This document shows positions 825 through 14,572 of a stretch of DNA of 39,125 bases, one piece after another; position 1 is the first letter of the stretch; every line of letters begins with the position of its first letter. The notes beneath the pieces are model-generated. The model did no database searches and was not told the origin of the DNA. It saw nothing but the letters and a program-made list of their open reading frames with translations. The translations under genes were made by a program, and so were the position numbers. Origin of the DNA: Bacillota bacterium (GTDB taxonomy: Bacteria; Bacillota; Bacilli; Alicyclobacillales; SLC66); NCBI GenBank assembly GCA_021846285.1, contig JAJZCB010000027.1, forward strand, positions 1 through 39,125. The letters run 5' to 3'.

Positions 825-1358
825 CTACCACTGTAGTTGCCCTTTCCTCATTTTCGCAATGTAAACGATCTGTCCAGTGTGACTAGGCAAATGTCTAAAT
901 TGATGTAGCAACATTTCAAGGGTGGTAGCTTCATTGTCGACACCACTGTTCGTCAACGAAGGCAAATTCAAATAAGGTTGTTCCAATAATTTCTCCGGAT
1001 TTTCTTTGGCGTTCTCAAGAACCTGAATGATGCGGTCGTATGATTTACCTATTAATTCCATCGCTTGTTCTTTGGACATTTGGAGACCCCGTTCGAATTC
1101 CTTATCCCTATCTCTTGTATCTGGAACGTCAAAGAAAACGGTTTCATATCGTTGGTGTACAGTTCCCCAAATATGTGCCACCAAGTTAGCTATGCTGTTA
1201 CTTTCTGGAGCTGGCGACCATACGATGTCTTCATCGGATAACTGGGTGATTACTTGTATTGTGCCTATTTGATCCGCTCGATATTTCTTTAATAGAAAGT
1301 CAATCAATATAGTCGAGCTATCCAAAACGGATTCACGCCCCAACATTTTTACTACCAT
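825..1358 (-). CDS. DinB-like / DUF1572 family protein
   Basis: A 177-residue four-helix-bundle protein of the DinB/YfiT superfamily, closest in pattern to DUF1572. These proteins usually bind a divalent metal with three histidines, and many act as thiol-dependent transferases or stress proteins; the exact role here is unknown. Candidate ligands are His62 (LVAHIWG) and His156 and His160 in the C-terminal HQFRHLPSHTGQI helix. The protein ends shortly after the last helix, slightly short for the family. The ATG at 1358 and a second ATG five codons in both lack a clear ribosome-binding site, so the start is uncertain. Upstream lies a full junction repeat (1436-1540), consistent with a cassette-like single gene. 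Confidence 0.85.
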   Translation of the reverse strand: MVVKMLGRESVLDSSTILIDFLLKKYRADQIGTIQVITQLSDEDIVWSPAPESNSIANLVAHIWGTVHQRYETVFFDVPDTRDRDKEFERGLQMSKEQAMELIGKSYDRIIQVLENAKENPEKLLEQPYLNLPSLTNSGVDNEATTLEMLLHQFRHLPSHTGQIVYIAKMRKGQLQW

Positions 1359-1435
1359 AATATCAAACGTCTGAGCATGTGGGGGGTACTATTTCAAATC
1401 CTACCGGAAAGTTGCATTGACATGCTATTGGATTA

Positions 1436-1540
1436 AACTGCCCGATTACGCAGCACTTGCCCTTCTGACCGTGCCGGATAATCATACACCTCCGTGGCTC
1501 TCACCGACGACTTTCAAGTCGCAGCCCGTTACCTGAATAA
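1436..1540. repeat. Junction repeat (attC-like), long class
   Basis: Lies between the VOC pseudogene and the DinB gene. The left end is TTAAAC followed by TGCCCGATTACG. The right end is CCCGTTACCTGAATAA (1525-1540). AAC (1436-1438) to GTT (1528-1530) spans 95 bp, against 93 and 97 bp in the other two long copies. The middle shares TAATCAT, CAC and other blocks with the copy at 5175-5283. GCACTTG (1453-1459) can pair with CAAGTCGC (1515-1522) leaving one bulged C, which recalls the imperfect L boxes of attC sites. Repeat status is clear by eye; attC identity is inference. Confidence 0.55.
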
Positions 1541-1551
1541 GACAATTCGCA

Positions 1552-1941
1552 TTAAGGAGCTACCAGCTCAACCTTGATTCAGTCAGGGTCTTAAAAATAG
1601 ACTGCATAATGGTCTTCTCCGCCTGCATATGGATGCCTGTCCTCGTAAAGAATTTTCATGCCGCTCGCTCGAATCTTTTCTGTCAATTCATCCCCTTGAT
1701 TACGGGAGTCCGCGTGAAAAGCCAAATGATTTAATCCGACCCGACTTCGGTTGTAGGGGGTACCTAGGTGTTTCTCCCTCACCTGGACAAACACCAAATA
1801 CGTATTGTCCAGCTTCCAGCTACGCCCTTCTTCCCACTCTTGAAACGGTTCATAACCAAGCTCTGATAAGAACCATCCCCAAAAATGAGTGGAGTGTTGC
1901 CGATTTGATACACATATCTCAACGTGGTGAAGACCACCCAT
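1552..1941 (-). pseudogene. VOC-fold (glyoxalase/bleomycin-resistance-like) protein with two nonsense mutations
   Basis: The open part (1591-1941, 116 residues) starts at an ATG behind GAGAGGTG and reads as a vicinal-oxygen-chelate protein: GGLHHVEICVS at the N-terminus with the first metal-ligand His, and the usual GLNHLAFHADS half-repeat near residues 69-79. The frame stops at TAA just after HYAVYF. Reading on in the same frame gives DPD, a TGA, then IKVELVAP and a TAA at 1552-1554. This is exactly how VOC proteins normally end (EDPDRIKVE), so the first stop looks like GAA to TAA and the second like CGA to TGA. The lost tail carries the final metal-ligand Glu. The gene is therefore probably inactive, or the strain is read through at both stops, which is unlikely. 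Confidence 0.8.
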
Positions 1942-1961
1942 AAAAACACCTCTCTCATTGA

Positions 1962-2033
1962 GGAATGCTGCTCGATTGCGCCGCAACTGTCTGTTTCCAT
2001 TCTACTGCATTCTTGCACCGTTACATTCAATTA
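1962..2033. repeat. Junction repeat (attC-like), short class
   Basis: Lies between the VOC pseudogene and the prenyltransferase-like gene at 2031. The left end GGAATGCTGCTCGATTG is almost identical to the left end of the copy at 6288. The right end ACCGTTACATTCAA (2017-2030) abuts the stop codon of the gene to the right. The end-to-end length is about 60 bp. TTGCG and CGCAA form a small hairpin next to the left end. Confidence 0.5.
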
Positions 2034-2960
2034 CGATATCTGTTGTATCCGTCCAAAGTCGTACAGAGATTTCAAGTTTCGAACAGTCAGATATCCCTTC
2101 CACTCCCTCTCAGCATCCAGCCAGTCTTCATCGTAATTCCCGTACCACGACCAATTGGGACTCCAACTTCCGTCTTCATTGATGTGTTCAATTTCATACT
2201 CCAAGTTCAACTGGATTGCGTTGCTTAGCATATCGGCAAACGGTGATGCAGGAGAATCAATAATCTGTAAAGGTTTCGCACCATAATTCGCCCATTGTTC
2301 TGGGCTCACATCCACGGTGAATGTAACGGACTTCATCAACTTGTCCTTAATGACTGAACGGTACGGTTCGGGAGCATATCTGTACAACCGCTGGTAGCAT
2401 AGAAAATCATGTAAGTCCAACTTCTCGGGCATCTGTTCCAGTTCCGACACCGCCTTGTCGGACAGTAAATGCAAAAACTGTCTTGGAGCCAATTCGTTAT
2501 AGCTCCACAGATAACCAAGGATCTCGGCGCTAGGATTTGCCCATGTGCCTTCGACACCGCACCGTCTCGTGGTTTCGTCAAAACTCCACCAAGGGGCATG
2601 AGGAACCAAGTTAATGGATGCTGGAACCGCATGCCACCGTTGCTCTTCGGCATCATACGCATCCAACAGATATCGAACTGCATCCTGAATCATCGGATCG
2701 GTCACAGGAAGTCCAATCTCCTGCGAATATTGCAGGGCTATCGACGTACCCATCGGCGATGACTCTTCCAATCGAAAATCAGGCTCTATGCGCTGCCCAA
2801 ACCCGCCGTCTGTGTTTTGAAAACCCTTGAGTGCGTTCCTAACATCATAAGAAGAACCTCCCCAAAAGTAGAATGCCGCCAATTGCTTGTCCAAAAGACG
2901 AGCTTGAGTCATGACAAACATTCGGGAAAGCTGGAATTGTCGTTCACTGAGTATCTTCAT
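2031..2960 (-). CDS. Prenyltransferase/terpene-cyclase-fold protein, copy 2
   Basis: A 309-residue soluble protein. It has the QNTDGGFG motif at residues 48-55, the QW-type turn of the alpha-alpha-toroid fold found in squalene cyclases and protein prenyltransferase beta subunits, followed by helix pairs and an ANPSAEILGYL segment. No cyclase DxDD acid or clear zinc ligands can be seen, so enzymatic activity is unproven. Its start overlaps the stop of the upstream copy by four bases (ATGA), so the two are translationally coupled. The shared GGSS, DGGF and NPSAEI-GYL segments show that the genes arose by tandem duplication. They probably form one functional unit, perhaps a heterodimer. Confidence 0.75.
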   Translation of the reverse strand: MKILSERQFQLSRMFVMTQARLLDKQLAAFYFWGGSSYDVRNALKGFQNTDGGFGQRIEPDFRLEESSPMGTSIALQYSQEIGLPVTDPMIQDAVRYLLDAYDAEEQRWHAVPASINLVPHAPWWSFDETTRRCGVEGTWANPSAEILGYLWSYNELAPRQFLHLLSDKAVSELEQMPEKLDLHDFLCYQRLYRYAPEPYRSVIKDKLMKSVTFTVDVSPEQWANYGAKPLQIIDSPASPFADMLSNAIQLNLEYEIEHINEDGSWSPNWSWYGNYDEDWLDAEREWKGYLTVRNLKSLYDFGRIQQIS

Positions 2961-3823
2961 ACGGTCATCCCTTCAATTCTGCCGTGATTCCGAAGTATTA
3001 CGAGCGTTTCCAAGGTCAAAATGCTTCTCCACGTGTCAACCTCTTCCACATCAGCATTCCAATTCAAAGGGAAAAATCCTTCAGGTGATTGCCTTGATAT
3101 TTCATAGTCAAGATTGAGGTTCGTTTCGTGTTTAAGATCACCATACAGCGGTGATGAAGGCGAAGGAACATACCAAATGGGTTTGGCAAAATACCCTGTC
3201 CAACTTGCCGGATCAATGTTTACAACGTTTCCAATCTCACGATGAAGGCACTCCAAAATCTCTGAAGTGATTCGTCGGGGAGTTCGTTCAGCCATACTCA
3301 GAAAACAAAGCGCCGCAAACATCTCTAGCGGTCGTGGAGAAGATCGGAGCTTATTAACGGCAATTTCAGTTAATTGTTCGAGAAAATTCCTTGGCACCAG
3401 ATCTTGGTACTCGTAAAGATACCCGACAATTTCAGCACTCGGATTTCCCCACAAATAATCGAATTGATCATCAGGAGGATCTTTTCGGCTGAGGTCGGGG
3501 AACCAATAACGGAGGTTGTCATCAAAAGAGTGCAGGAAATACGATATACCTTTTTGGACCAATTCATTCTCCACTGGGACATGTAACTCGCTCAGAATTT
3601 GAAAAGCGACACACGTGCCAATGGACGACGAACAGTTAGCATCGCCTTCACCCATTCCCGAAAATCCACCGTCTGCGCTCTGATGTTGCTCCAACACCGC
3701 TAAAACTGCCTCGGAACTGCCCCCTTCAAAATGATATCGGAACAACGCCTGTTCCAAAGGTCTACCATAGTCTGAAAGGTAGTCTCGTGCCCGCACAAAG
3801 TTTGACCTGCTCATGACCAACAT
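2957..3823 (-). CDS. Prenyltransferase/terpene-cyclase-fold protein, copy 1
   Basis: A 288-residue paralogue of the next gene. It aligns over its whole length: FEGGSS near residue 33, QHQSADGGFSG near 47, GNPSAEIVGYLYEYQDLVPRNFL in the middle, and a C-terminal LNLDYEI-PEG-PLNW block matching NLEYEI-DGSWSPNW in its partner. The fold is the alpha-alpha toroid, but no catalytic acid motif is visible. The likely start is the ATG at 3823 behind GAGGTG; a second ATG three codons on is possible. A complete junction repeat (3871-3980) lies directly upstream and none lies between the paralogues, so the pair behaves as a single two-gene cassette. Confidence 0.75.
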   Translation of the reverse strand: MLVMSRSNFVRARDYLSDYGRPLEQALFRYHFEGGSSEAVLAVLEQHQSADGGFSGMGEGDANCSSSIGTCVAFQILSELHVPVENELVQKGISYFLHSFDDNLRYWFPDLSRKDPPDDQFDYLWGNPSAEIVGYLYEYQDLVPRNFLEQLTEIAVNKLRSSPRPLEMFAALCFLSMAERTPRRITSEILECLHREIGNVVNIDPASWTGYFAKPIWYVPSPSSPLYGDLKHETNLNLDYEISRQSPEGFFPLNWNADVEEVDTWRSILTLETLVILRNHGRIEGMTV

Positions 3824-3870
3824 GTTGAATTATCACCTCACTTTCACAGTACTTTCGCTTCGGCTTGTGT

Positions 3871-3980
3871 CGTTAACCTTCCCGATCGCTACGTAATGAC
3901 AGCGTAGCACCGCCGAATTTTTATGCAACCGTCACGCGGCTCCGCTTTCTGCAGATATGTACACGTTAGGTCAGTAAGGA
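3871..3980. repeat. Junction repeat (attC-like), long class
   Basis: Lies between the NUDIX gene and the prenyltransferase-like pair. The left end is CGTTAACCTTCCCGATCG and the right end CACGTTAGGTCAGTAA, ending shortly before the NUDIX stop codon. AAC (3875-3877) to GTT (3965-3967) is 93 bp. On the minus strand the gene-proximal end reads ACCTAAC, which fits the integron R-box pattern RYYYAAC. A perfect GCTACG/CGTAGC hairpin sits inside the left half. Confidence 0.5.
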
Positions 3981-3989
3981 TTGCGGGTT

Positions 3990-4481
3990 TTATACCTCGA
4001 ATGAACTAACCCATTGGATGTCTCCCTGATAAAGTGACGTAAGCGTTTTTTGAATCACAGTAGGCAACACATCATGGCTCACAAGATTCTCTTCGTTAAA
4101 CTCCATCCAATAAAACTCGAGGTGAGATTCCGTTGAGTCTGGATTACTGGTTGGATTTAACGAGTCAACGTAAACCTCGAACAAATGACATACTTCGTGG
4201 ATGTAAGCCTCATTCGGAACCTCTTCGATGAAAACCTCCATCGCTCCAAGAAACCTACCAACTGAACAAGATTCAATTCCTAATTCCTCTTGGAGTTCCC
4301 GTTGTAAAGCTGATTTTGCTCCTTCTCCAGGTTCAACACCTCCGCCGGGCAGAAATGAATGTGCTCCTTTCATTTTCGCAATCAATATTTTGTTTTGCTT
4401 AACAATGACCGCCCGAGCAATTTGCCTAAATCTTATCTCCAGAACCAACACCTCCCGAAGTTCACGCAAAACACACTGCAC
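3990..4481 (-). CDS. NUDIX hydrolase
   Basis: A 163-residue NUDIX hydrolase. The complete NUDIX box (G-x5-E-x7-REL-x-EE-x-GI) is at residues 47-69 and provides the Mg2+-binding helix that cleaves nucleoside diphosphate-X compounds; the actual substrate is unknown. The N-terminal strand (LEIRFRQIARAVIVKQNKILI) is typical. The start is ambiguous. The ATG at 4481 has GAGG about eight bases upstream inside the shared junction motif. A much stronger GGGAGG lies eight bases before an in-frame CTG twelve codons downstream, close to where homologous proteins usually begin. It sits alone between two junction repeats. Confidence 0.9.
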   Translation of the reverse strand: MQCVLRELREVLVLEIRFRQIARAVIVKQNKILIAKMKGAHSFLPGGGVEPGEGAKSALQRELQEELGIESCSVGRFLGAMEVFIEEVPNEAYIHEVCHLFEVYVDSLNPTSNPDSTESHLEFYWMEFNEENLVSHDVLPTVIQKTLTSLYQGDIQWVSSFEV

Positions 4482-4484
4482 ATT

Positions 4485-4500
4485 CCCGTTACCTCAATAA
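4485..4500. repeat. Junction repeat, right-end half only
   Basis: CCCGTTACCTCAATAA, the right-end motif of the junction family, lies between the NUDIX gene and the methyltransferase pseudogene. The left end would fall inside the NUDIX coding sequence and is not seen, so this junction looks truncated or the NUDIX gene begins within the site. Confidence 0.45.
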
Positions 4501-4541
4501 TTCGACCGACGAAGTGGATGAATTTTCGCGCCAGAAATACC

Positions 4542-5104
4542 CTATTCCGGCACCGTGCCATAGGCGATCATCATCGTAGGAGCTGTAAGGGTATCGAATT
4601 CTAACCCATGGTCACGGAAGGTTGTTCCAGCCAAAACTTCAGACATAAATAGTTCCTTCGCCTCATCTTCACTCAACCCTCGCGCCACCAAGTCCCGGTT
4701 ATAGGACTCTTCGTCTTGAGGGATGTTCGATAACCCCTCTTCCGATAGTGAATCGTGAAGGGCTCTTGCTGACGAACGATCGCCGCGTGGATTTAAGTAG
4801 TTGACCTTGTCGCTGACACGGCAATTGACGTCGCTTAAACCGATCTCCGACATATAGACAGGAATTTTCATTCCCACGTTTCCATCTTTTCCACTTCTGG
4901 CTGCATCAAGCTCGTATAACTTTTGCAGGATACCGATCTTGACTATCTCTGACTGATCGACTCCATGAATGTAAATGTGCGACATGGCTGATAGCCAGAA
5001 TGGTTCGAAGCAAACTACCAATCCGTTGCTCCGAACACACCTCTTCATGCGTTGAAGAATTTCTTCAAATACTCGATTTTTTCATCCCAGTAGTATCGGT
5101 CCAT
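4542..5104 (-). pseudogene. SAM-dependent methyltransferase with deleted core
   Basis: The N-terminus is intact: an ATG at 5104 behind GGAGG encodes MDRYYWDEKIEYLKK, a typical opening of a class I methyltransferase, then stops after four more codons. The C-terminal half resumes in another frame (near EEILQRMKRCVRSNG) and runs about 170 residues to 4542 with GLVVCFEPFW, VDQSEIVKIGILQKL and GKDGNVGMKIP. Those segments normally follow the SAM-binding Rossmann part, and that part, including the glycine-rich motif I, is absent. An internal deletion of roughly 90 codons plus a frame change is the simplest reading. The remaining open frame alone cannot bind SAM. A junction repeat flanks it on each side. 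Confidence 0.75.
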
Positions 5105-5174
5105 ATTCGACCTCCAGTGGACGAAGTGACGTCAGCAACACTTGACCAGTATTCTTCACAGGAGTGCTCATGAA

Positions 5175-5283
5175 CTAACTCTGCTGCCCGAATTCTCAGG
5201 AACCGCGCTACTGGCTCCCTGCATAATCATCCACTTGTCAAACGACGGTAACAATTGCATTTTCACCCCCGTTACTTGAAGAA
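5175..5283. repeat. Junction repeat (attC-like), long class
   Basis: Lies between the nucleotidyltransferase gene and the methyltransferase pseudogene. The left end is CTAACTCTGCTGCCCGAATT and the right end CCCGTTACTTGAAGAA (5268-5283), five bases from the stop codon of the gene to the right. AAC (5177-5179) to GTT (5271-5273) is 97 bp. It aligns with the copy at 1436 through TGCCCGAtT, a central GCATAATCAT block and the shared right end. Confidence 0.55.
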
Positions 5284-5288
5284 GAAAT

Positions 5289-6257
5289 TTATAACGGTTG
5301 TCGAATTCGGAGCATCAATTCGTCTGCGGCTCTGCAGAGTTCATGTATTGAGCATGAATCCAATTTCGCGAAACCGACTCTCTCTAAATCTATCACCAAG
5401 TTCTTCGGTAATCGTTCGACATATTGGTCTAGTGGCAAGCCATTAGAGGTCTCAAGATAAAGCCAGAATGCCTCTCCTGAAAAATGCCACGCCAAACTTG
5501 CTAGTTGACCCGTTCTTACCAAGCGTTGAGCCTTTTTTGCATTCAAAGCATCTTGAAGCGGTGAAAGCACAAAGTCATTTGCCCTATCTGGATATTGCCT
5601 CCGTAAAAACTCTCTAAAGCGTTCGACGGCTCGTACCATCCGTGGTACATCCCCATCGGACACGACGAGCCATTTGCATATATCTTTAATGATTTGAAAG
5701 TCAAAATTGATTTCCATCCAAGGAATTAGCCGGCCTGTGGAACAAGAACCAGTATCAAAGAACATTGCCATGAAGGCGGCATCCGTCCAAGCGGCTCCGC
5801 CAGCGACGGTAGCCGAATACGGGGTGTTCTGCTCAATACTGTTGAGCGCCCATTGCTTCCTTTGCTCAACGAGCTTAGTCCATTTACCGAATGTCTCCAT
5901 CTGCCCAACAGTCGAACCAAAGTAATGGCATGCTTCGTCTTGAATGGCTTTGAATTGCCCAAGAGGATCGTACAATGGCTTGGATTCCAGCAAGTATCTA
6001 TAGTTCAATGGGTTGTCGCTAATCGCATGCGGTGAAATGGTAGCATAGTCTACCTGAACGAATTCACCTTCATAAATTAGGTTTTTCGGTTCGCATGTTG
6101 CGGACTCTTCCACACAAATTGTGATGTCAACATCACTGAATTCATCAGCATCCTCACGTCCCACTGAACCGCCAGCGAATGCGTATTTCACGTGAGGCAG
6201 ATTTAACTCATGAAGACACCTTCGTCCCAAGTCGAGGAGCATATCGTTACGTGTCAT
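5289..6257 (-). CDS. Nucleotidyltransferase-domain protein
   Basis: A 322-residue protein whose first 50 residues hold the polymerase-beta-type signature GGSVGR (29-34) followed by SDVDI with Asp42 and Asp44. This is the fold of aminoglycoside adenylyltransferases, MNT-type antitoxins and tRNA nucleotidyltransferases. A third acidic residue is plausible at QVDYA. The remaining 250 residues are helical and not assigned. The start chosen is the ATG at 6257 behind AAAAGGAC; 18 further open codons upstream are actually the junction repeat. The substrate is unknown: a drug, a nucleotide or a protein are all possible. No HEPN partner gene is adjacent. Confidence 0.75.
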   Translation of the reverse strand: MTRNDMLLDLGRRCLHELNLPHVKYAFAGGSVGREDADEFSDVDITICVEESATCEPKNLIYEGEFVQVDYATISPHAISDNPLNYRYLLESKPLYDPLGQFKAIQDEACHYFGSTVGQMETFGKWTKLVEQRKQWALNSIEQNTPYSATVAGGAAWTDAAFMAMFFDTGSCSTGRLIPWMEINFDFQIIKDICKWLVVSDGDVPRMVRAVERFREFLRRQYPDRANDFVLSPLQDALNAKKAQRLVRTGQLASLAWHFSGEAFWLYLETSNGLPLDQYVERLPKNLVIDLERVGFAKLDSCSIHELCRAADELMLRIRQPL

Positions 6258-6287
6258 GACATCAGTCCTTTTGAGAGATTTCTTGTG

Positions 6288-6369
6288 GAATGCTGCTCGA
6301 TAGTGACGCAAGACCTTTCGTTCGACAGCCCTTGCGTCATGTACGCCCCTTTAGCGACAGTACAGCAAC
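6288..6369. repeat. Junction repeat (attC-like), short class, with perfect hairpin
   Basis: Lies between the DUF2268 gene and the nucleotidyltransferase. The left end is GGAATGCTGCTCGATAG. Directly inside it, TGACGCAAG (6304-6312) and CTTGCGTCA (6331-6339) are a perfect 9-bp inverted repeat around 18 bases. The right end CCCCTTTAGCGAC is a diverged form of CCCGTTA. It is followed by AGTACAGCAAC (6359-6369), which recurs exactly at 11336-11346 beside another right-end motif. There is no T-run, so it does not look like a terminator. Confidence 0.55.
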
Positions 6370-6388
6370 GGCTCTGCTGTAAGCTTTA

Positions 6389-7162
6389 TCATTTGATGTG
6401 TTTATAACCACTATTCCAGAATAGTTCTTCATCTGGTATGTAATGGGCTTCTAAAATAGACATGCTATGTTTTTGCATATAAGCTCTCACAATACGGCTT
6501 CCAATCTCGTATGCTTTCAAACCAATGTATTCAATATAACCATTTGGACCAACAGCATCCAGATCGGCGCCGTTCCACCATGTCTTTTCATCTTCATCGG
6601 ATACGTTATAGGGTGGAATAGGTGCTGGATACAGCGTGTCACTCAGCACCATAGCTAAACCTTCAAATATAAGATAATCCCTGACGGTGTAGGGTACGAC
6701 TTCACCGTACCCGTGCTCGGTAGCTTGTGGTTTTTGCGTCATACGTACACCGTGACTGAACTCGTGAGCAATATTCCGTTGAAGTCTGACTGGTGCGAGT
6801 TCATCGATTTTGACACTCACAAGGATTTTCCCTGGAGCTATAGTACACCCACCACCAAACTTCTCGATTGCAGGAAAAATGTGCGTTTGGATGTCATTGA
6901 TTCGTGAGGGCAAGAGAGTTGAAACCCGCTCGCAACTTGTCCTTCCGACTTCCGCTAAATCAAAATTGAGTAAGTGTTGTAATTTCGCGTCTCGCGAGGC
7001 GTCGGTTGCAAAGGGCTTGACCGCATTGCGTATACTTGCTTGAACGAAGAAATTAAACGGATACGGCTGGTTTTTACTGAGATCATCGCTAATTCGGTCT
7101 AGAGTGGCAGTGAACGTGACATCATCGATGTGAATCAGTTCCTCGATGTAATTGAATATCAA
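6389..7162 (-). CDS. DUF2268 (YjaZ-like) putative zinc protease
   Basis: A 257-residue protein with HEFSHG at residues 133-138 and a downstream acidic FEGLA near 167. This HExxH-plus-Glu pattern of gluzincin-like peptidases is typical of DUF2268/YjaZ proteins. No signal peptide or membrane segment is visible, so a cytoplasmic location is likely. The start is TTG at 7162: GGAGG is eight bases upstream, and the protein from there (IFNYIEELIHIDDVTF) has a sensible domain beginning. The longer open frame upstream is junction DNA. In other Bacillota, YjaZ-type genes are uncharacterised predicted Zn-dependent proteases, so the peptidase activity is a family-based prediction. Confidence 0.8.
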   Translation of the reverse strand: MIFNYIEELIHIDDVTFTATLDRISDDLSKNQPYPFNFFVQASIRNAVKPFATDASRDAKLQHLLNFDLAEVGRTSCERVSTLLPSRINDIQTHIFPAIEKFGGGCTIAPGKILVSVKIDELAPVRLQRNIAHEFSHGVRMTQKPQATEHGYGEVVPYTVRDYLIFEGLAMVLSDTLYPAPIPPYNVSDEDEKTWWNGADLDAVGPNGYIEYIGLKAYEIGSRIVRAYMQKHSMSILEAHYIPDEELFWNSGYKHIK

Positions 7163-7393
7163 AGTACAAAACCTCCATCTGTATTCCCATGATTTTTTCG
7201 ATACCCTATCAGGGGTATTACCATTTCCGCAAGACATGTTATTGAATTCTACTGCCCGAGAGTCCAGGAAGGAAGAGCGGGAGGGAGGGAGGGAGTTCGA
7301 CGTTGTATGTTTATTTAAACATAATCGCAGGTCAAATCCTGAGTTGGGGCTCCAGCACAGTGGTACTGTGATTTCAGTGCTCAAAATGCTGAA
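7163..7393. other. Intergenic junction with half repeat, G4 motif and hairpins
   Basis: Contains the left-end junction motif TACTGCCCGAGAG (about 7250-7262) but no CCCGTTA right end. It also holds a perfect four-run GGGA tract (7279-7293, plus strand), an 8-bp palindrome TATGTTTA/TAAACATA (7306-7313 and 7316-7323), and a CACAGT-GGT-ACTGTG hairpin (7356-7370) downstream of the retropepsin stop codon. No convincing promoter is visible. Confidence 0.5.
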
Positions 7394-7774
7394 TTACTTT
7401 TGATAAATCTCCATTGCATCTAGGTCGATAACAAACCGTCCTGCCGTAAGAATGTCTGCTCCCAACAGACCATTGATTCCGAAGTGGGAATCAATGTTAG
7501 CAAAATCCAATTTGACTTCGGACAGTGTAAACGTTCCAAACTCGATTGACTCAATCTTTTTACGGATAGACCGTTCGACACCACCAATGCCATGCATGAC
7601 AACAATTTCATCATTAACATCGCCATAAATGCCGATATCATCAACCAGTTCCATTGATATCACTGAGTGACTTGCGCCGGTATCAAGCACTAAATGGTCG
7701 ATTAGTCTGCTTTGTCCTCGGAATGTCACCGTCATTGAGACAAATAGAAGGCCATCAATTGGTGCGATCTTCAA
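7394..7774 (-). CDS. Retropepsin-like aspartyl protease
   Basis: A 126-residue single-domain aspartic protease. It shows the flap-preceding catalytic motif LVLDTGASHSVIS with Asp31 and the late hydrophobic GLLGADIL segment that packs under it. One copy of D-T/S-G means that activity requires a homodimer, as in retroviral proteases. There is no signal peptide or membrane anchor. The TTG start at 7774 has GGAGG seven bases upstream and overlaps the end of the upstream gene by 20 bases, indicating translational coupling. Bacterial proteins of this type are mostly uncharacterised; the target protein is unknown. Confidence 0.85.
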   Translation of the reverse strand: MKIAPIDGLLFVSMTVTFRGQSRLIDHLVLDTGASHSVISMELVDDIGIYGDVNDEIVVMHGIGGVERSIRKKIESIEFGTFTLSEVKLDFANIDSHFGINGLLGADILTAGRFVIDLDAMEIYQK

Positions 7775-8018
7775 CTGGTGACCTCCTAAATCCCACGCGA
7801 GAAACAATCTCCATAACCATTTCTGGTCTACCCGTATGATAGACAAAGTTTTCATGTTTGGCCCTTAGAAGTTCTCTAGTAGCCTCCTGCGGATCTGGTA
7901 TGGAACGAATAACCGCCATTTCATCTACATACAACTTGCTGCCATCCTGGTGCGATTTTAATGCCTGCACCAGTACAAACTGATCCGGAAATAGCTCGCG
8001 AACCTCCGACCACAACAT
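7755..8018 (-). CDS. Small partner of retropepsin-like protease
   Basis: An 87-residue soluble protein starting LWSEVRELFPDQFVLVQALKSHQDG and ending VYHTGRPEMVMEIVSRVGF-R. From memory, a similar small protein (W-x-EVR start, VYHTSR-like end) commonly precedes retropepsin-like genes in Bacillota, so I regard it as a conserved partner, perhaps an inhibitor, chaperone or substrate. No known domain is recognised. It overlaps the protease gene by 20 bases. The ATG at 8018 has only a weak upstream GACGGTGA. Confidence 0.7.
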   Translation of the reverse strand: MLWSEVRELFPDQFVLVQALKSHQDGSKLYVDEMAVIRSIPDPQEATRELLRAKHENFVYHTGRPEMVMEIVSRVGFRRSPVEDRTN

Positions 8019-8111
8019 GGATTATCACCGTCCGTCTCATCAGTCACCTGTATTATACCATTTTGCGAACTGAGATGGTTCCACATAGCGCATCGTCGTC
8101 TGAATCGAGTC

Positions 8112-8181
8112 ATGTCCTGCGACCCTTGCGACGCGTTGCTTGTATGGTATGTTTTGAACCAACGCCCCGTTAGTTCATTAA
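8112..8181. repeat. Junction repeat (attC-like), probable short class
   Basis: The right end CCCGTTAGTTCATTAA (8166-8181) lies between the secreted copper-amine-oxidase-N-like gene and the retropepsin pair. GCGTTG (8133-8138) and CAACGC (8160-8165) form a perfect inverted repeat adjoining the right end. The left end is weak (TCCTGCGACC near 8116), giving a length of about 60 bp. Confidence 0.4.
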
Positions 8182-8215
8182 GATGACGATATTACGTCCA
8201 ATCAATTTTAGATTT

Positions 8216-8767
8216 TCATCCAATCGGGTGGAAATTTAATGACCATGTATCGTTTACCCCGTTCCAAGTTGCGCCCATTTTCCAATAGTAGTTTAGAATC
8301 GTGTCCAAGTAATAAATCGGCATGTACACTGTCTCGATACCTGAAGCAGAATTCCTCGCTACAAACTTCGGCACAACTGCCGAAGGAGGTGCACCAGCTA
8401 CAAGGTGTATTTGTATCTGATTCCTGGTAGCCGTCAGTGCCTCGGGATTACCCAGCGCTGCTAAGGTATATCCTGGTGGATATTTTACCAGGGAGAATGC
8501 TGTTCCATTCCAAGTCGTTTCAAAACCTACCTGTTTCAAGGTTTTTTGCACGTAGCTTATTGGTATCCAAGTTGTCTCCACACCACTCCACGGATCTTTT
8601 GCAACAACATGTTGTACGTGTAGAGATGCATGACCTGTCACTGAAATTGTCGTTGGTACATACCTGCCAGTCGTTTCTGTTGCAGCATTTGCGACGACAG
8701 GAAACAGACCCAGGGCGATTACAGATCCGACAGCAACCACTCCCGGTAATCCAGCTTTTTGTTTCAT
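8216..8767 (-). CDS. Secreted protein with two copper-amine-oxidase-N-like repeats
   Basis: A 183-residue secreted protein. The ATG at 8767 follows GGGAGG and opens a clear signal peptide (KQK, then a hydrophobic run ending VANAATE). The mature part has two similar units: WIPISYVQKTLKQVGFETTWNGTAF and YMPIYYLDTILNYYWKMGATWNGVNDTW. Both match the pattern of stalk-type copper-amine-oxidase N-terminal domains, in which a beta strand and helix are followed by a W-x-G turn. These domains are common in envelope proteins of Bacillota and usually act in binding rather than catalysis. Neither repeat shows a metal centre. It lies upstream of a junction repeat and alone in its interval. Confidence 0.8.
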   Translation of the reverse strand: MKQKAGLPGVVAVGSVIALGLFPVVANAATETTGRYVPTTISVTGHASLHVQHVVAKDPWSGVETTWIPISYVQKTLKQVGFETTWNGTAFSLVKYPPGYTLAALGNPEALTATRNQIQIHLVAGAPPSAVVPKFVARNSASGIETVYMPIYYLDTILNYYWKMGATWNGVNDTWSLNFHPIG

Positions 8768-9055
8768 AACAGCAGTCCTCCCGATGTGTTTTATCAATAT
8801 TCCCAAGTTATCTTTATACGTATTCGTCAATGTAGACGAATGAATGAAGTTGAAAGTTACACAATCCGATATGGAAAACATTTATAGGGATATTAGCGAA
8901 TGGGTCTTCCTGCACATGCCTGCCCGCAACGGTCAGCCATCCGATTGAAGCCGTATTGGACTTTAGAAATCGACAGGCGGTTGTTGACCCTCAGTTTATC
9001 AGGCGGTACTTCTCCCAGATTCGCCGTCAGCGAGTGGCGGTGGGGAACATCGCCG

Positions 9056-9967
9056 TCAAAGATCGCGACCGCCGACAACTGCCCAAGCCAAGTGGACATT
9101 TTCATTTGCATGATACATCTTCGCTGACCTGTCAAAGTCAAAGAAACGTTCCTGGATGTCGGCAGGACCTAAGTCTTCGTAGAGGTAAGATCCCAGCTTC
9201 TCTAGTTCTGCCCCAAGACTCGACGGGTCGAAGGTCGTATTCATCGATTCTCCCATTTTTTGCAACTCTTTGCGAATTTCATGCAGCCTTGCATCGGTCT
9301 TCGTGTGGTAATCAAAAATAACCGAGCTGCCTGCGGGGGCAATTTGCGTAATCGACCGTAGTGTTTCGAATACATCGTCGGGGGACAAATACATCGTGAC
9401 ACCCAACAAACTGAAGAGACTTTTGACGCTCGCGTTATACGGCGATCCAAGAAGCGCTTCACTTAATCTTTCCTTGCTAAGATCTGCGGACACAAAATGC
9501 AGACTACGTGGGATTCCCCAATTCAAATCAGCCAATCTTTCGCGCTTAAATTCTTGTGTACCCGGCAGGTCAACCTCAAATACCTTAATCTCTTTCAGCA
9601 AGTCACCGTGCCGAAATGCAAAGGTGTCCAGTCCCGCCCCGAGTATCACATATTGCCCGACGCCCTTGCCAATTTCCGATTTAAGATTATCCTCTGTGTA
9701 TCGTGATCGACTGATCACATTGGGAAGTCCCATTGTTTGCAGAATGGGTGACAGACTGACCTGATGCAGGTTAACAGTATCGCCGTCAGGACTTTCGGTC
9801 TGTGCCACAGCAGTGGTCAAGCCCTGTTCAATGAGCCTGCGTCTCCCTTCCGGTATCAACTGGAGGGCGAGGGAATCGTCAAAAACCACGGGGGTATCGT
9901 GCGCAGAATGGTAGCCTCGAATAAAGGCGGTCATGATTGCAGTAATGCTTACATGATCTGATGTCAT
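9056..9967 (-). CDS. SAM-dependent methyltransferase, leucine-carboxyl-methyltransferase family
   Basis: A 303-residue methyltransferase of the PF04072/TIGR00027 type (PPM1-like). Motif I is YVILGAGLDTFAFR (106-119), followed by the acidic strand FEVDLPGTQEFKRERL, which in this family contacts the SAM ribose, and SLFSLLGVTMYLSPDDV. Homologues in actinobacteria and Bacillota O-methylate small acids or peptides in secondary metabolism; the substrate is unknown here. The ATG at 9967 sits behind GGGAGG. Unlike its neighbours the gene has its own near-consensus promoter and a structured leader of about 95 bases, suggesting independent regulation. Confidence 0.85.
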   Translation of the reverse strand: MTSDHVSITAIMTAFIRGYHSAHDTPVVFDDSLALQLIPEGRRRLIEQGLTTAVAQTESPDGDTVNLHQVSLSPILQTMGLPNVISRSRYTEDNLKSEIGKGVGQYVILGAGLDTFAFRHGDLLKEIKVFEVDLPGTQEFKRERLADLNWGIPRSLHFVSADLSKERLSEALLGSPYNASVKSLFSLLGVTMYLSPDDVFETLRSITQIAPAGSSVIFDYHTKTDARLHEIRKELQKMGESMNTTFDPSSLGAELEKLGSYLYEDLGPADIQERFFDFDRSAKMYHANENVHLAWAVVGGRDL

Positions 9968-9972
9968 CTGGA

Positions 9973-10036
9973 ATCCTCCCTTGAAGGTGTATCCTTTAAG
10001 AGTTCAAAAGGATGGTATATGCAGAGAGAGTATACC
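9973..10036 (-). promoter_or_regulatory. Structured leader with two adjacent hairpins and possible SD-pairing arm
   Basis: Two perfect inverted repeats abut each other in the methyltransferase leader: GGTATA/TATACC (10014-10019 and 10031-10036) and ATCCTTT/AAAGGAT (9991-9997 and 10007-10013). On the transcript the ATCCTTT arm can instead pair with GGAGGAT of the ribosome-binding site (9973-9979) using two G-U pairs. The two foldings exclude each other, as in translational attenuators. A TTG-initiated 30-codon open frame spans the leader and ends overlapping the methyltransferase ATG, but it has no ribosome-binding site. Confidence 0.4.
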
Positions 10037-10070
10037 AGACACACAAATTGATTCAATAGACGGACTTCAT

Positions 10071-10099
10071 ATCATACCACATAAAAAGTTTCTTGTCAA
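10071..10099 (-). promoter_or_regulatory. SigA-type promoter of the methyltransferase gene
   Basis: On the minus strand, TTGACA (10094-10099), a 17-bp spacer and TATGAT (10071-10076) make a near-perfect housekeeping promoter. It lies between the junction right-end motif at 10147 and the methyltransferase gene. Confidence 0.8.
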
Positions 10100-10146
10100 T
10101 GACTCAAATTGGGTCCTTATACACATTCCGCGTTGTGCGCTATGCG

Positions 10147-10162
10147 CCCGTTACCTGAAGAA
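10147..10162. repeat. Junction repeat, right-end half only
   Basis: CCCGTTACCTGAAGAA, an excellent match to the right-end motif, lies between the GNAT and methyltransferase genes. Instead of a left end, the promoter and leader of the methyltransferase follow. GTTACC (10150-10155) has an inverted partner GGTAAC about 35 bases to the right. Confidence 0.5.
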
Positions 10163-10244
10163 CATGCCCAAAAGGATGAAGAACCGCCCATGGTAACCCA
10201 CCAAAATAGAGGCGGTCCTGTGTTGTTGAATTTACACGTCAGTC

Positions 10245-11285
10245 CTACACTAAAGTGGAAACAAAGCTGTCCCACTCCTCGTTCCCTTCAAGATGTGCGC
10301 ACTGTTTCAGAAGTGTTTCACGATCCATAGTGTGTCCGTTGCTCCATATATACCTGACGTTCTTTATGGTGTTTGAAGCATTATGTGCTAATGCCCAGCA
10401 CTGTGCCGCTTGCCAATGATATATCGGTTCCACCTCGTTCATGTCATCATAGTGTTTCCCCCACTCTGCCCACTGTTCGACATCCAAATCCGTGATATTC
10501 TCAATCGGTGGGTAAGGCGTGAAACTGCTGTAATCTTTTACGTGAGCAAACCCGACTCGCTCCGCTATTGTGTACGATCCGATGTTGGAATCAACACAAT
10601 GCCAGCCGATTTGCCTTATTCCATCGGAGATAGCCCTGTTCACTGTTGCACCCACCGCAATCGTTGCCAGCCCCTGTCGACGAAATTCAGGATCAGTTGT
10701 GACTCCAATCTCCATCTTATCGTCTACAATGCAATCCACGAGGCACCAGCTAACGATTTTTCTATCCGTCCTCACATACGCTCCTAAACAGAGCCCTGCA
10801 AAATCATTGAGGTCAGTGAAGTTGAACCAGTTGGTAACACGCTCTGCATTTTCGTATTTGAGATAATCGTAACTTCCTACAGACACATACTCCACGGTGT
10901 ACCCATCACTGTGCAGCTCCGTGAAATTCGTCAAACACAGCTTGGCTAGTTGATAATATCGTCTTGTATATTTCTTTACGGCTATGTTTCTATGGATGTC
11001 GCCTATACGCCGTTCCCATTCTTCTGTGTCACACATAATAGGGTGTTCCCAAAAGTTTAGTCTCTGCTTGACTCCTTCATTAAACTCCTGGTTGTTGGCA
11101 CAGCCAGCCACCAAATTGCACTCAGGTGTAATAAATAGTGCCGATAGAGGTTTTACAGTTTCATCCACGTAAATTTCTCCAATTGACGTTCCCTTGATAA
11201 CTGCCTCGATACACAGTTCATGATGGGAGTTCACAACTAGCTGGGCAACCTTGTGATGGTCATTCCGTGAAAGTTTTTGAAACAG
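10245..11285 (-). CDS. GNAT acetyltransferase (GNAT_acetyltr_2 type)
   Basis: A GNAT-fold acetyltransferase of the two-part PF12746 type, in which an N-terminal domain (AVIKGTSIGEIYVDE-KPLSALF) precedes the acetyl-CoA-binding domain. The latter has the V/T-T-x-PEFRRQGLA-T pyrophosphate loop and a downstream W-x-CVDSN-x-GSYTIAERVGF block. The substrate is not predictable. The first GTG (11234) cuts into the conserved N-terminal helix and has no ribosome-binding site. AAGGAGG lies eight bases before an in-frame CTG at 11285, and LFQKLSRNDHHKV from there fits the family opening, so a CTG start giving 346 residues is proposed. Confidence 0.85.
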   Translation of the reverse strand: MFQKLSRNDHHKVAQLVVNSHHELCIEAVIKGTSIGEIYVDETVKPLSALFITPECNLVAGCANNQEFNEGVKQRLNFWEHPIMCDTEEWERRIGDIHRNIAVKKYTRRYYQLAKLCLTNFTELHSDGYTVEYVSVGSYDYLKYENAERVTNWFNFTDLNDFAGLCLGAYVRTDRKIVSWCLVDCIVDDKMEIGVTTDPEFRRQGLATIAVGATVNRAISDGIRQIGWHCVDSNIGSYTIAERVGFAHVKDYSSFTPYPPIENITDLDVEQWAEWGKHYDDMNEVEPIYHWQAAQCWALAHNASNTIKNVRYIWSNGHTMDRETLLKQCAHLEGNEEWDSFVSTLV

Positions 11286-11920
11286 TGCGGACTCCTCCTT
11301 AATAAGGTCATTCTTCTTGAAGACTACTCTCCGTTAGTACAGCAACACATTCAGTTCTCCTTTGCCATACGCCCCAAAAATTCCGCTGCTTCCCACGCGG
11401 TTGGGGCCTTGAGCACATTCTCCTCGGCGTTATCAGTTCTGGTGATTCGGTCCTGAAACTCGAGTACTGATTGCCATAAACAGCCTCCTTCATGACGGAT
11501 ATCTATTTCAAAGTTCCTGAACCCCTCGCTCTTCCTACCTCCACTGTATCACCGCCCTCATTGTGCCGCAAGATCCGTTCGTTCCCCGTGTTCAAGGCTC
11601 CTGACTCCACAATCAGGCCCGAAGCGCTATAATGTCACGCTCTCCGTATAGCCTAACGCCTATGGTGACGATGTGATTTGTACGGTGGGTTATTTTCCAG
11701 TGGATCAACAAGCTCACGAATCAGGGGCGGGAATTTCGCGAGTGAGAGCCTGTGAGAAGAGCAACCAAGCCTGCGTCATCAAGACCGTATGGATGGCACG
11801 GGTATGTTATCGATGTTAGGCCGAAACATAGCCACCATCAGCCGTTTCAACAATGATCACCTTCGTGTTCGTTATGGAATTTCTTTCCCTGTCGATTTGA
11901 AGGCGTTTGGGAGTGATTCG
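11286..11920. other. Degenerate region between GNAT and MFS genes
   Basis: About 635 bases without an intact gene. At 11331-11340 is CCGTTAGTAC, a junction right-end motif followed by AGTACAGCAAC, as at 6359. On the minus strand an open stretch ending at about 11350 reads QDRITRTDNAEENVLKAPTAWEAAEFLGRMAKEN in pieces of up to 20 residues at a time. A good AAGGAGG plus ATG lies in another frame (14 codons), so this looks like a small gene broken by a frameshift. The stretch 11640-11830 has no recognisable coding. GCCTAAC (11651) and GTTAGGC (11815) are perfect complements but are 171 bp apart and lack inner pairing. Confidence 0.4.
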
Positions 11921-12844
11921 TCATGTTTCTTTCCCAAGACTACGCCTCTTCCAAACTAGCCCTGACGCCATTGAAAACAGGACTCCGGTAAAGATATAGG
12001 GAAACAGGGAGTTGAGATTATAGAGGCTTGTTCCAACCATGGGCCCGAGGGCAGTCCCCAGCCCCTGGGCAGCGCTTATGCGCCCGGCTACGGCGCCCTG
12101 TTCAGTCTGGTTTACGGACAAGGATGCGCCCGAGGTAGCGCCGGGCAAGACGAGTCCGACCCCCAGTCCCAAGAGTATGAACCCTATATAAACGGCCTGC
12201 ATATGGCTATGAAACAACAGACTCACAGAGGCCAGCAAGAAAATCGGAGCCCCAATAGTGAGGAGCGCCCTGGAGGATAGTTTCAGACGTCTCACAAATA
12301 GCAATTGCGACACTACGGAGACAGCACCCGCAAGCATGAAAAGAAACCCCGCAATTTGCGCCGTTCCACTCGATGAGAGATGAAAATGGCCTTCAATAAA
12401 GAAACCGGTTGTAACCTGAATGGCAAGTACAGAAGCCTGAAGAGAGGTGATGATGAAAAGATACATCCAAACCCGCCTATCAAATAATTTGATTCTCGCG
12501 GTAACTCTGGCACTCGCGCCGGACGTGACTTGTGATGGCGGCAGATAAGCCCATACCATAAGAAAGCCGATCAAAGGCAATAAGGACCCAAGATAGAGAG
12601 GGGCCATAAGGTGGTATGCAGAAAGTACACCCATAGCCGGTCCGATAATGGATCCCAGTCCGCTTGCCATCCACACCAGTGAAATTGCCGCAGTTCTTTC
12701 TCTGCCGCTCGTTGTATCCGCGATGTAAGCCTGAGCGGCGACGGGAACGGTCGAAAAGAAGACTCCCGAGGCGATTCTAATCAGCAAGAGCAATACGAAC
12801 AACAAGAAAGCCGGGGGGCGATGCGATATTCCCCAATCGCCCAC
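11921..12844 (-). pseudogene. MFS efflux transporter, 5'-truncated
   Basis: A 307-residue remnant of a 12-helix major-facilitator drug exporter. It opens in helix 4 (LLFVLLLLIRIASGVFFST, the R-x3-G region) and continues through the inter-domain loop (QVTSGASARVTARIKLFDRR) to helix 12 and a normal C-terminus. Helices 1-3 with motif A, about 75-80 residues, are missing. The first usable codon, GTG, lacks a ribosome-binding site. It lies ten bases after the DinB stop in the same reading frame, suggesting that a deletion joined the two genes. Loss of helices 1-3 should abolish transport. Confidence 0.75.
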
Positions 12845-12853
12845 AATGGCGCC

Positions 12854-13378
12854 CTATGAAATATGTGGCAAGTAGCGTTCTTGGAGAATAGTTCGATGGT
12901 GAAGTTCATGACCTGCAATGATGTAAGCCAAGGCAAGGGCAGACGTAGGATATTCTCCAACCGTGCTGCGTCGCGACCATGCATCTTCGGACAGTGTTCC
13001 AGTTAGACTCAGAGTGGCGTCACGCACGATTCTGAAGTCAGACAGGATTTGGTCAAATGGGATCTGATTTATACCGGCCTCTCGAACCCAGATGTCTTGA
13101 TCAAAACCAGGAAGCGCCGATGTATCTCCACGAGATGCACAAAGCAGACGGTAAGCCATGACGCGCTCAGTGTCGGACATGTGACTCACGACTTCCTTGA
13201 TCGTCCACTTATCGCTGTCGTAGCGGTAAAGAGAGGCTTTTTCTGATATGCCGGCCAACAACTCGACCGTGCCGCGATGCTGATGCACGAGGCTTTCAAG
13301 GATGTCGCCTTCAGGTACGAGCCTAATATATCGGTCAAAATAGGGGTTGTATTCGCTTGACACTGGTCGTGCTAACAT
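12854..13378 (-). CDS. DinB/YfiT-like metal-binding protein
   Basis: A 174-residue DinB-superfamily four-helix bundle. The three metal-ligand histidines are evident: His66 (EVVSHMSDTERV) and His157 and His161 in AGHELHHRTIL. The opening YNPYFDRYIRLVPEGDILE and the PGFDQD-W segment match a subgroup widespread in Bacillota. Possible roles are thiol-dependent transferase or metal-dependent stress enzyme; none is proven for this subgroup. The ATG at 13378 sits eight bases after GAGGAG; a GTG two codons earlier is possible. Unlike the DinB protein at 825 it keeps the HELHH form, so the two are distant paralogues rather than a recent duplication. Confidence 0.9.
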   Translation of the reverse strand: MLARPVSSEYNPYFDRYIRLVPEGDILESLVHQHRGTVELLAGISEKASLYRYDSDKWTIKEVVSHMSDTERVMAYRLLCASRGDTSALPGFDQDIWVREAGINQIPFDQILSDFRIVRDATLSLTGTLSEDAWSRRSTVGEYPTSALALAYIIAGHELHHRTILQERYLPHIS

Positions 13379-13429
13379 AGACACATCTCCTCACATTAGT
13401 ATGAAGTACTCGTTTGCTGCGCACTCGCA

Positions 13430-13440
13430 CCCGTTATTCC
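13430..13440. repeat. Junction repeat, right-end half, diverged
   Basis: CCCGTTATTCC lies between the small membrane protein gene and the DinB gene, 45 bases past the former's stop codon. TTTGCTGCGCACTCGC just to the left resembles a compressed left end. This is the last recognisable copy toward the right. Confidence 0.3.
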
Positions 13441-13795: not shown

Positions 13796-14572
13796 TCACC
13801 AGAAGCCACCATCGGAATGAATAATTTGTCCGGTTATCCATTCGGACTCATCACTCGCTAGAAATACGATTAACTTTGCCGCATCACGTGGTTCCCCAAT
13901 ACGACCCATCGGGAATTTTGGCAATAAAAACTCTTTCAATTCGCTACTCATCCACCCGGAGTCTGTTGGTCCAGGATCTACGGCATTAACCGTAATTTTA
14001 AGTGGTGCCAATTCGAGAGCGACTGATTTTGTAAAAGTGGAAATCGCACCTTTTGTTGTAACGTATGCCAAATTGCCGGGCTGAGGTGATTTGTCTTGCC
14101 CTGACACCATGTTAATGATTCGCCCACCATGTTTACCCTCAATTTGACGAGCAAACTCTACAGTCAAAAGACACGTTCCCCTTACATTCATACTGTAATG
14201 AGCATCGAGAATGTCTGCATTTATCGAACGAAAATCTACGTCAACGGAATGCGTCGCATTATTCACAAGAATTGATGGAGAACCTAATCTCTCATAAACT
14301 TCGTCGAGTAGTATCCTCGGCGCATCTGGTTGCGACAAATCCAATTCCATTGACTCACATCTAACTCCAACACTGCGGATCTCCGTCATCAAATGCTGTG
14401 ACCACTCGGAATCGTCCTCAATGAAATACTTCATCTGGCGATCATACCTTGACCAATGGGTGAAAAAAATATCAGCTCCCTCTCGGGCTAATTCTCGACA
14501 TATTGCAGTGCCGATGCCGTTTGCTCGGCTAGCACCAGTAACAATCGCAATCTTATTGGTTAATCGTTTCAC
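13796..14572 (-). CDS. SDR-family oxidoreductase
   Basis: A 258-residue short-chain dehydrogenase/reductase with a Rossmann fold. It shows TGASRANGIG (12-21) for the dinucleotide, NNA (104-106), the catalytic Ser157 and the Tyr170-x3-Lys174 pair, and NAVDPGPTDSGWM after the last strand. The MSGIIHSDGGF-type C-terminus is complete. A conserved bacillus subgroup with an SRANGIG loop and an HW-SRYDR insertion matches, often annotated 3-ketoacyl-ACP reductase without proof. The GTG at 14572 lies behind AAAGGGGATG; 39 more open codons upstream carry no ribosome-binding site and are not conserved-looking. Confidence 0.9.
   Translation of the reverse strand: MKRLTNKIAIVTGASRANGIGTAICRELAREGADIFFTHWSRYDRQMKYFIEDDSEWSQHLMTEIRSVGVRCESMELDLSQPDAPRILLDEVYERLGSPSILVNNATHSVDVDFRSINADILDAHYSMNVRGTCLLTVEFARQIEGKHGGRIINMVSGQDKSPQPGNLAYVTTKGAISTFTKSVALELAPLKITVNAVDPGPTDSGWMSSELKEFLLPKFPMGRIGEPRDAAKLIVFLASDESEWITGQIIHSDGGFW

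Follow-up and report, generated by a model that had tools for sequence, protein, structure and literature searches.

Gene units and repeat sites in the window

The stretch analysed here, hereafter the window, spans the full length of contig C133 (39,125 bases) in the 3.89-Mb, 164-contig genome of a Bacillota bacterium. Its left part is occupied by minus-strand genes of unrelated families, namely abhydrolase, DinB (twice), VOC, NUDIX, nucleotidyltransferase, DUF2268, retropepsin-like, leucine carboxyl methyltransferase (LCM), GNAT, MFS and SDR, and between these genes a diverged element recurs. We consider it probable that the left 14.9 kb of the window is an array, now in decay, that belongs to an integron-like gene-cassette system with a Xer-type recombinase. 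The gene units are listed here, with G001 denoting a genome of the same genus.

825–1358, minus strand: DUF1572/DinB gene unit
1591–1944, minus strand: glyoxalase/VOC-like gene unit
2031–3823, minus strand: overlapping gene pair, taken as one unit, without a Pfam match
3990–4454, minus strand: NUDIX gene unit, with a counterpart (88%) at a different place in G001
4542–5048, minus strand: gene unit without a Pfam match
5289–6257, minus strand: nucleotidyltransferase-like gene unit
6389–7177, minus strand: DUF2268 predicted protease gene unit
7394–8018, minus strand: overlapping pair including a retropepsin-like protease
9056–9967, minus strand: leucine carboxyl methyltransferase-like gene
10245–11234, minus strand: GNAT acetyltransferase gene unit
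11921–13384, minus strand: MFS fragment and DinB gene units, both present in G001 in unchanged order
13796–14572, minus strand: short-chain dehydrogenase gene, the final gene ahead of the syntenic backbone

Read on the gene strand, a TAACGGG core lies past a stop codon and CGGGCAG or CGAGCAG lies ahead of the next gene; the two ends are designated LH and RH, respectively. The sites were identified with R2, a sequence-only model of 45 sites that includes no window row and three rows from other contigs of the host genome, run with filters off. R2 recovered, all on the minus strand, the 11 places at which the original prediction had reported a recurring diverged element, together with a new site (site l).

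1430–1537, minus strand: site a, exact TTCAGGTAACGGG (LH end) at 1525–1537 and RH end TCGGGCAG at 1438–1445; right half matched at 1437–1491, E = 1e-4
1965–2031, minus strand: site b, LH end TAACGG (2023) and RH end CGAGCAGCATTCC; matches at 2001 and 1967, E = 0.37 and 0.54
3877–3978, minus strand: site c, full site; E = 2.3e-14, partly circular; matches in 9 of the 59 genomes of the order, its own included
4485–4500, minus strand: site d, only the LH end (TTGAGGTAACGGG); E = 4.1 alone
5183–5284, minus strand: site e, full site; E = 5.9e-13, partly circular; matches in two genomes, its own (also on a second contig, C140) and G007
6292–6375, minus strand: site f, RH end CGAGCAGCATTCC, LH-like CTAAAGGGG and an inner stem of 9 bp; E = 0.16
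7250–7278, minus strand: site g, only the RH end (TCGGGCAG); E = 0.09
8154–8182, minus strand: site h, LH end (CTAACGGGG); E = 1.6
10141–10163, minus strand: site i, exact LH end TTCAGGTAACGGG; E = 1.1
11308–11346, minus strand: site j, LH end (CTAACGGAG); E = 0.17
13407–13436, minus strand: site k, LH end (TAACGGGTGC); E = 0.088
14817–14905, minus strand: site l, new, centre GCATGAATATGCA and RH-like TTATCGGAGCAGG; E = 0.0045; at the synteny break with G001

The circularity at sites c and e arises because the seeds of R2 were reached through searches with window elements 3868–3972 and 5175–5280. Element 1430–1537 was also used as a query, with its hits not entering R2, and the remaining window places were never used. 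Taken singly, the matches to c, e and the right half of a were strong, those to k, g, f and j were weak, and further weak matches fell at b, i, h and d. The probable copy proposed at 8112 was recovered as the match at 8154, weak singly, and the term "full copies" proved too strong for the elements at 1962 and 6288, in which both ends are present and the middle is short. The new element (14831–14875 within site l) marks the end of the array.

At E ≤ 5, R2 gave 24 matches in the window. Seventeen were on the minus strand within 1–14.95 kb, 14 of them at the previously noted places or at the new site and three elsewhere (1626, 2942 and 11935); the remainder comprised three plus-strand matches in the same interval and four in the rest of the window. 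The core TAACGG occurred eight times on the minus strand of 1–14.95 kb, every time at a previously noted place, and four times on the plus strand of this interval. With a spacing of 30–140 bases, the gene strand of the window had four pairs of the two cores, each within the array, and the other strand had none. Collectively, the weak window sites are above noise. The motif TTCAGGTAACGGG at up to three mismatches was not commoner in the window than in shuffles (10 vs. a mean of 8.5); at up to one mismatch it had seven matches in the whole genome, four of which lie inside the array. A repeat finder detected just one pair of these window elements, and an Rfam search of the window at gathering thresholds gave no match.

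Site a holds GGGCTGCGACTTGAAAGTCGTCGGT (1503–1527), which recurs in several further genomes of the order at 93–100% identity and which we take to resemble the end of an IS200/IS605-type element; 12 of the 59 genomes, its own included, match some part of this site. In site b the core is followed by CAGCATTCC, as it is in simple sites of genomes G042 and G048. Between the array and a LysM gene there is a strong inverted repeat (14971–15017, 20-nt arms, 95%), probably a terminator.

The site family in the window's order

Profiles built without window rows returned sites c and e, plus more sites in recombinase-bearing contigs. When iterated, such a profile gave 139 matches at E ≤ 0.1, mutually overlapping loci included, vs. 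two at E ≤ 1 in composition-shuffled sequence; composition-only shuffles were used for the site profile searches and the weight-matrix scans, and dinucleotide-keeping shuffles for the folding test. The order alignment (A7) kept 45 of 53 sites, and the 45-site consensus reads TTnTTGnnCnAACGGGGGC..CAAGAAG..TGCATGAATAT..TTATGGnGCTATnGGGCAG.

R2 sites were present in 45 of the 59 genomes of the order, with at least 68 in the richest genome. The host genome of the window had 17 at E ≤ 0.01 and 36 at E ≤ 1. Nine of its contigs besides C133 had two or more matches (C7 five; C30, C107 and C93 four each; C128, C139, C62, C90 and C99 two each), and on each of these contigs all matches lay on one strand. 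Pattern searches with TTCAGGTAACGGG in relatives returned mostly chance matches, with counts like those of the reversed control, and yielded contigs G007:C83 and G014:C23.

A recombinase associated with the sites

In G007 and G014 a tyrosine recombinase gene was found directly upstream of a row of site-delimited units, the genes of which were, by eye, MFS, metallophosphatase, GNAT, DinB and HAD; the reading frame of the G007 recombinase is broken. Relatives of this recombinase at E ≤ 1e-30 occurred in 20 of the 59 genomes. The proteins of two of these, G012 and G056, group with XerC in the tree, and the other 18 genomes were richer in sites (median 17 vs. 1, p = 6e-6). Some of the recombinases are intact, with open frames of 294–327 codons. 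Arrays lie beside the recombinase, which is on the array strand, in G007:C83, G051:C138 and G048:C54. The original prediction had proposed to look nearby for intI or another tyrosine recombinase; one is found beside arrays in relatives, and it is not IntI. The window itself, as had been noted, contains no integrase, and no recombinase accompanies its array; the host genome has a broken copy on C93, in a 10.7-kb region 98.7% identical to G001.

A fused simple site, TAACGGGCAG, in which both ends of the window element are united, was found beside the recombinase in some genomes. It lies directly past the recombinase stop codon in G042 (TTCAGGTAACGGGCAGCATTCC), with a similar one in G045, and in G027 the site CTCAGTTAACGGGCAGGTTAACGC is located beyond the conserved end of the recombinase, within a longer frame. 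The attI-like site beside the recombinase that characterizes integrons thus has a counterpart in these three genomes, seen at individual loci rather than in a systematic scan, and none in the window, where there is no recombinase.

An alignment of ten intact members showed that R138, K162, H228, R231, H254 and Y263 are kept, presumably the residues expected for catalysis. The recombinase scored 71 bits against the integron integrase model TIGR02249, the cut-off of which is 265 bits, and among solved structures XerD was the best match at 145 bits, with IntI4 at 76 bits. The insert that precedes the HxxR motif in IntI was present in five of five IntI rows and absent from four cassette-recombinase rows and from XerC/XerD, as well as from all ten rows of recombinase alignment A1. 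In the tree, from which the L185 recombinase was left out as its frame is interrupted by a stop, IntI formed its own clade (100/100 support) and the cassette recombinases fell outside it, among Xer proteins. A true IntI integron was rejected, as the integrase-model score, the structure match, the insert and the tree were all against it. With regard to the host's own Xer proteins, XerD scored above its NCBIfam cut-off and XerC just at the cut-off (334.8 of 335.15 bits), and both look intact.

Other recombinases were seen near sites. A fragment of another Xer-like recombinase stands at the start of contig C139 of the host genome (C139:116–403; L005/L117), near sites C139:2546 and 3577, and is by eye similar to an intact one on C49. 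The same contig contains, about 3 kb from its sites, an 81-bp piece (L117 6730–6810) that is 95% identical to window 3646–3726; it matches the interior of the overlapping gene pair and is perhaps a leftover gene fragment. In G004 (L050) a site at 5601–5669 (E = 1e-4) follows a GNAT-like gene, and another tyrosine recombinase, which is distinct and shorter, is encoded nearby (6585–7160).

Related arrays in Bacillales

Plasmid homologues of the recombinase were 51–53% identical over the part searched, and in one plasmid NUDIX and hypothetical genes form an array of 12 kb in which an inverted-repeat site occurs 20 times. Genome contigs were scanned in turn and gave 453 recombinase relatives, of which 79 loci were kept, giving 82 loci with three plasmids. 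By title the 79 loci are almost all from Bacillales genera. The one titled Chryseobacterium (L142, JAGGQZ010000033.1, Chryseobacterium sp. ISL-80) has a Bacillales-like recombinase, and mislabelling or contamination is likely. The name of strain L127 (CP053689.1), Arthrobacter citreus, may be wrong, because its recombinase shares 95–96% identity with the Gottfriedia acidiceleris recombinase and with that of a Bacillus sp. At the class level, the recombinase was identified at E ≤ 1e-70 in 32 of 398 sampled Bacilli genomes and in 24 of 145 genera, the weakest of the 32 matches possibly being other Xer proteins.

From the 161 Bacillales sites found, 113 candidates were considered and 61 of these were hand-picked by length (about 90–98) for alignment A2; the 61-site covariance model R1 gave 435 matches at E ≤ 0.01 in the 82 loci. 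A profile returned 307 full-length sites, 299 of which were on the strand opposite the recombinase, and for 224 a long frame ended in the 150 nt upstream, vs. 74 of 307 random places. The integron arrangement of mostly one gene per unit, in one orientation and with the site after the gene, is found in these arrays. The form of the Bacillales site is AACTAAC-GGGTGC-TTTAGTT..AACTAAC-GGGGCAG-GTTAGTT. For LH, weight-matrix scans identified 488 simple sites on the array strand and 23 on the other; for RH the counts were 404 and 76, and shuffles gave none of either. The succession of simple sites was LR in 231 cases and RL in 228, with LL in 165 and RR in 112.

The simple sites also flank the recombinase gene. 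On the array strand, 51 of 81 loci had LH after the stop codon of the recombinase and 37 of 80 had RH ahead of its start; the corresponding counts were 2 (LH) and 5 (RH) on the other strand, and 2 and 0 of 82 at random places. A looser scan found 73 (LH) and 58 (RH) of 82. In loci flanked in this manner the reversed recombinase gene stands where the middle of a site would be. Many Bacillales middles resemble intrinsic terminators by eye (a stem followed by a T run), and such middles would insulate the transcription of each unit.

Unit-wise differences between genomes

From position 14910 rightwards G001 is colinear with the window at about 95%. To the left of this position the MFS and DinB units are common to both, the NUDIX unit is elsewhere in G001, and the other content is replaced. 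At the base level, the NUDIX homology ends a few bases past CTTACTGAYCTAACG, that is, at the LH end. Gene units thus differ in presence and order between the window and this genome of the same genus, with breaks at the sites. Within Bacillales, a shared-segment test identified 20 of 2181 local matches that start near an RH site in both loci, and six of the 20 were inspected. In four of these pairs the shared unit starts at GCAG-GTTAG (R') and stops at CTAACGGG (R''), giving two clean breaks; the pair L165/L173 has one clean 5' break, and L153/L185 has none that is clear.

The middles of the sites behaved differently from the genes. Among Bacillales pairs in which the upstream gene alone was homologous, the middle was at least 85% identical in one of nine (median 72%, random pairs 66%), and where the downstream gene alone was homologous, in one of six. 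Based on these 15 pairs, the site middle is not inherited with its gene. Whole gene modules with both middles gave just six homologous pairs and no usable count. In the window's own family, the middle of site c recurs in G051 (84%) behind a gene of different sequence, and the NUDIX gene preceding site c has a different middle in G001.

Folding of the window family did not differ from controls (mean z −0.29 vs. −0.31, p = 0.47), with no consensus pairs. In the Bacillales sites 75% of cells were paired vs. 24–44% when slid, and two copies of one inverted-repeat core would account for most of this. By eye, the window ends read GGGCAGTTTAAT, GGGCAGCAGAG and GAGCAGCATTC and the Bacillales end reads GCAG-GTTAGTT; no GTTRRRY was seen, in agreement with the caveat attached to the original prediction.

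Proposed mechanism and alternative explanations

Each site is an element of about 100 bp composed of two dif-like simple sites and a short middle. LH lies soon after a gene (model consensus cTTcTTGaaCtAAC-GGGGGC-atAAgttcAAgAAg, with lower case weak) and RH ahead of the next (..TTATGGcGCTaTc-GGGCAG-R'). Based on these observations, we propose that a tyrosine recombinase of a distinct Xer-type group, likely catalytic, would cut and join DNA at the simple sites, probably in a double-strand mode, such that gene units of the form R'-gene-R'' would be inserted, lost and reordered. Units would be received either at the attI-like fused site (R''-GGGCAG-R') next to the recombinase or at any array site. 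In the simplest model, which the data suggest, LH and RH would each serve for crossing over; if both are usable, middles and genes could be exchanged separately, and the fused R''-GGGCAG-R' sites could be explained as products of LH x RH crossing over. Movement of the window array is probably over, because it has no recombinase of its own and the copy on C93 is broken.

We regard the sites, the arrays, their strand bias, their association with the recombinase and the unit-wise differences as established. Several results weigh against reading the window in this manner. Three of its 11 previously noted sites stand alone and the other eight are individually at noise level with R2. Model R1 had no match in the window at E ≤ 5, and on 36 loci of the window's order it gave six weak hits, the best with E = 0.033. 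Because the sites of the two groups are so far apart, a single model cannot cover both, and what connects the order with Bacillales is therefore the recombinase, together with core letters common to both (TAACGGG...GGGCAG). The proximity of sites to stop codons is modest in the window's order: a frame of at least 60 codons ended within 150 nt upstream of 33 of 53 sites, and this was true of 23 of the 53 when the other strand was considered and of 16 of 53 random places. Several genomes are rich in sites and have no recombinase at the threshold used (G043 with 54 sites, G040 with 31 and G026 with 29), and in G044 the examined sites nearest the recombinase are about 12 kb away and on the other strand. 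The cassette recombinases form one clade weakly (79/70), the separation of middles from genes was seen in a small number of pairs, and, as there is no excess folding, an attC-like single-strand mechanism is unsupported in the window family.

One alternative is that the array is a true integron or a cluster of attC sites lacking integron-integrases (CALIN), with attC sites of an IntI-type integrase whose ends have diverged. Small accessory genes arrayed on one strand, elements that each contain two simple sites, an attI-like site and the gain and loss of units would all be expected of it, and the Bacillales site form is near the layout of attC simple sites. We nevertheless consider it unlikely, based on the scores of the recombinase against TIGR02249 and IntI4, its missing insert and its place outside the IntI clade, and also because the middles do not move with the genes and the window family shows no folding excess. 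The prediction of an integrase-less attC cluster was not upheld for these reasons and for the lack of a GTTRRRY end. The other form it had allowed, a functionally similar cassette system, agrees with the site-delimited same-strand units, the dedicated recombinase, the attI-like site in some relatives and the unit-wise differences.

Equally doubtful is the explanation that the elements are dispersed repeats of the miniature inverted-repeat transposable element (MITE), repetitive extragenic palindromic (REP) or terminator type that settled after genes, with the gene differences having arisen by ordinary horizontal transfer and homologous recombination. The elements are indeed numerous and scattered in some genomes, the Bacillales middles look terminator-like, part of site a is a 25–27-bp sequence repeated in other genomes, and sites of the window's order show just a modest tendency to lie near stop codons. 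Such repeats would not account for the one-strand clusters, the alternation of LH and RH, the flanking of the recombinase far above the other-strand counts, or the fact that shared units break at R' and R''. Least probable of all are Xer/dif-type modules worked by the host XerC and XerD with the dedicated recombinase as a passenger: dif-like arms, 6–7-bp spacers and seemingly intact host proteins fit this, but the recombinase lies beside or between the sites and its presence tracks their number, and the sites hold one orientation where pdif modules alternate.

An integron-like cassette system with a Xer-type recombinase thus remains our preferred explanation of the window. For the class as a whole we incline, by a narrower measure, to the view that Bacilli hold an independently evolved counterpart of integrons, with a Xer-derived recombinase, two alternating dif-like sites, and gene and spacer modules that are shuffled separately, the spacer modules being terminators or the recombinase gene itself.

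Comparison with known systems

No earlier description of such a system was found in the literature searched, outside of which lay preprints and most subscription papers, and this is apparently a widespread and undescribed gene-shuffling system in Bacilli. One study describes integrons as extremely rare in Firmicutes, the sole complete one being in Limnochorda pilosa, along with a few CALINs (PMC9024848). Standard integron tools would be expected to miss the present system because they are keyed on IntI. The spread of the recombinase among Bacilli genomes, together with the arrays, would change current thinking on accessory-gene acquisition in spore-forming Bacilli. If our interpretation is correct, a group thought to be integron-poor has a large cassette pool of its own, gene-cassette capture arose more than once, and there is a second testable case of a Xer recombinase turned into a gene-capture machine.

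Among the nearest annotated relatives of the recombinase outside its group are the XerA-type recombinases of lactobacilli (L209, L210), which are about 40% identical over a 201-aa part. They differ in lying between or before restriction specificity subunit (hsdS) genes, loci in which no search for arrays was made. With XerCD/dif and pdif modules the system shares simple sites with inverted arms and a 6–7-bp spacer, and a Xer-family recombinase. The pdif modules of Acinetobacter plasmids are bounded by dif sites of alternating orientation. The system described here differs in having an extra, dedicated recombinase, two alternating spacers, a single orientation and long arrays.

The likeness to integrons is more extensive, and includes one-orientation arrays of small accessory genes, a site of two simple sites after the gene, an attI-like site by the recombinase, the gain, loss and reordering of units, and clusters that lack a recombinase. 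The differences are that the recombinase is of Xer type without the IntI insert, that there is no GTTRRRY, that sites of the window's order show no folding excess, that middles are exchanged apart from genes, and that in many Bacillales loci the recombinase gene is reversed between LH and RH. The IntI insertion has been described as indispensable to how integrons work, although its conservation is incomplete (PMC8138268). Judged from its sequences, the system would be integron-like in anatomy while several of the defining features tested are lacking, and we suggest that it is a cassette system of its own that stands beside the integrons, with recombination as its likely mode of change.

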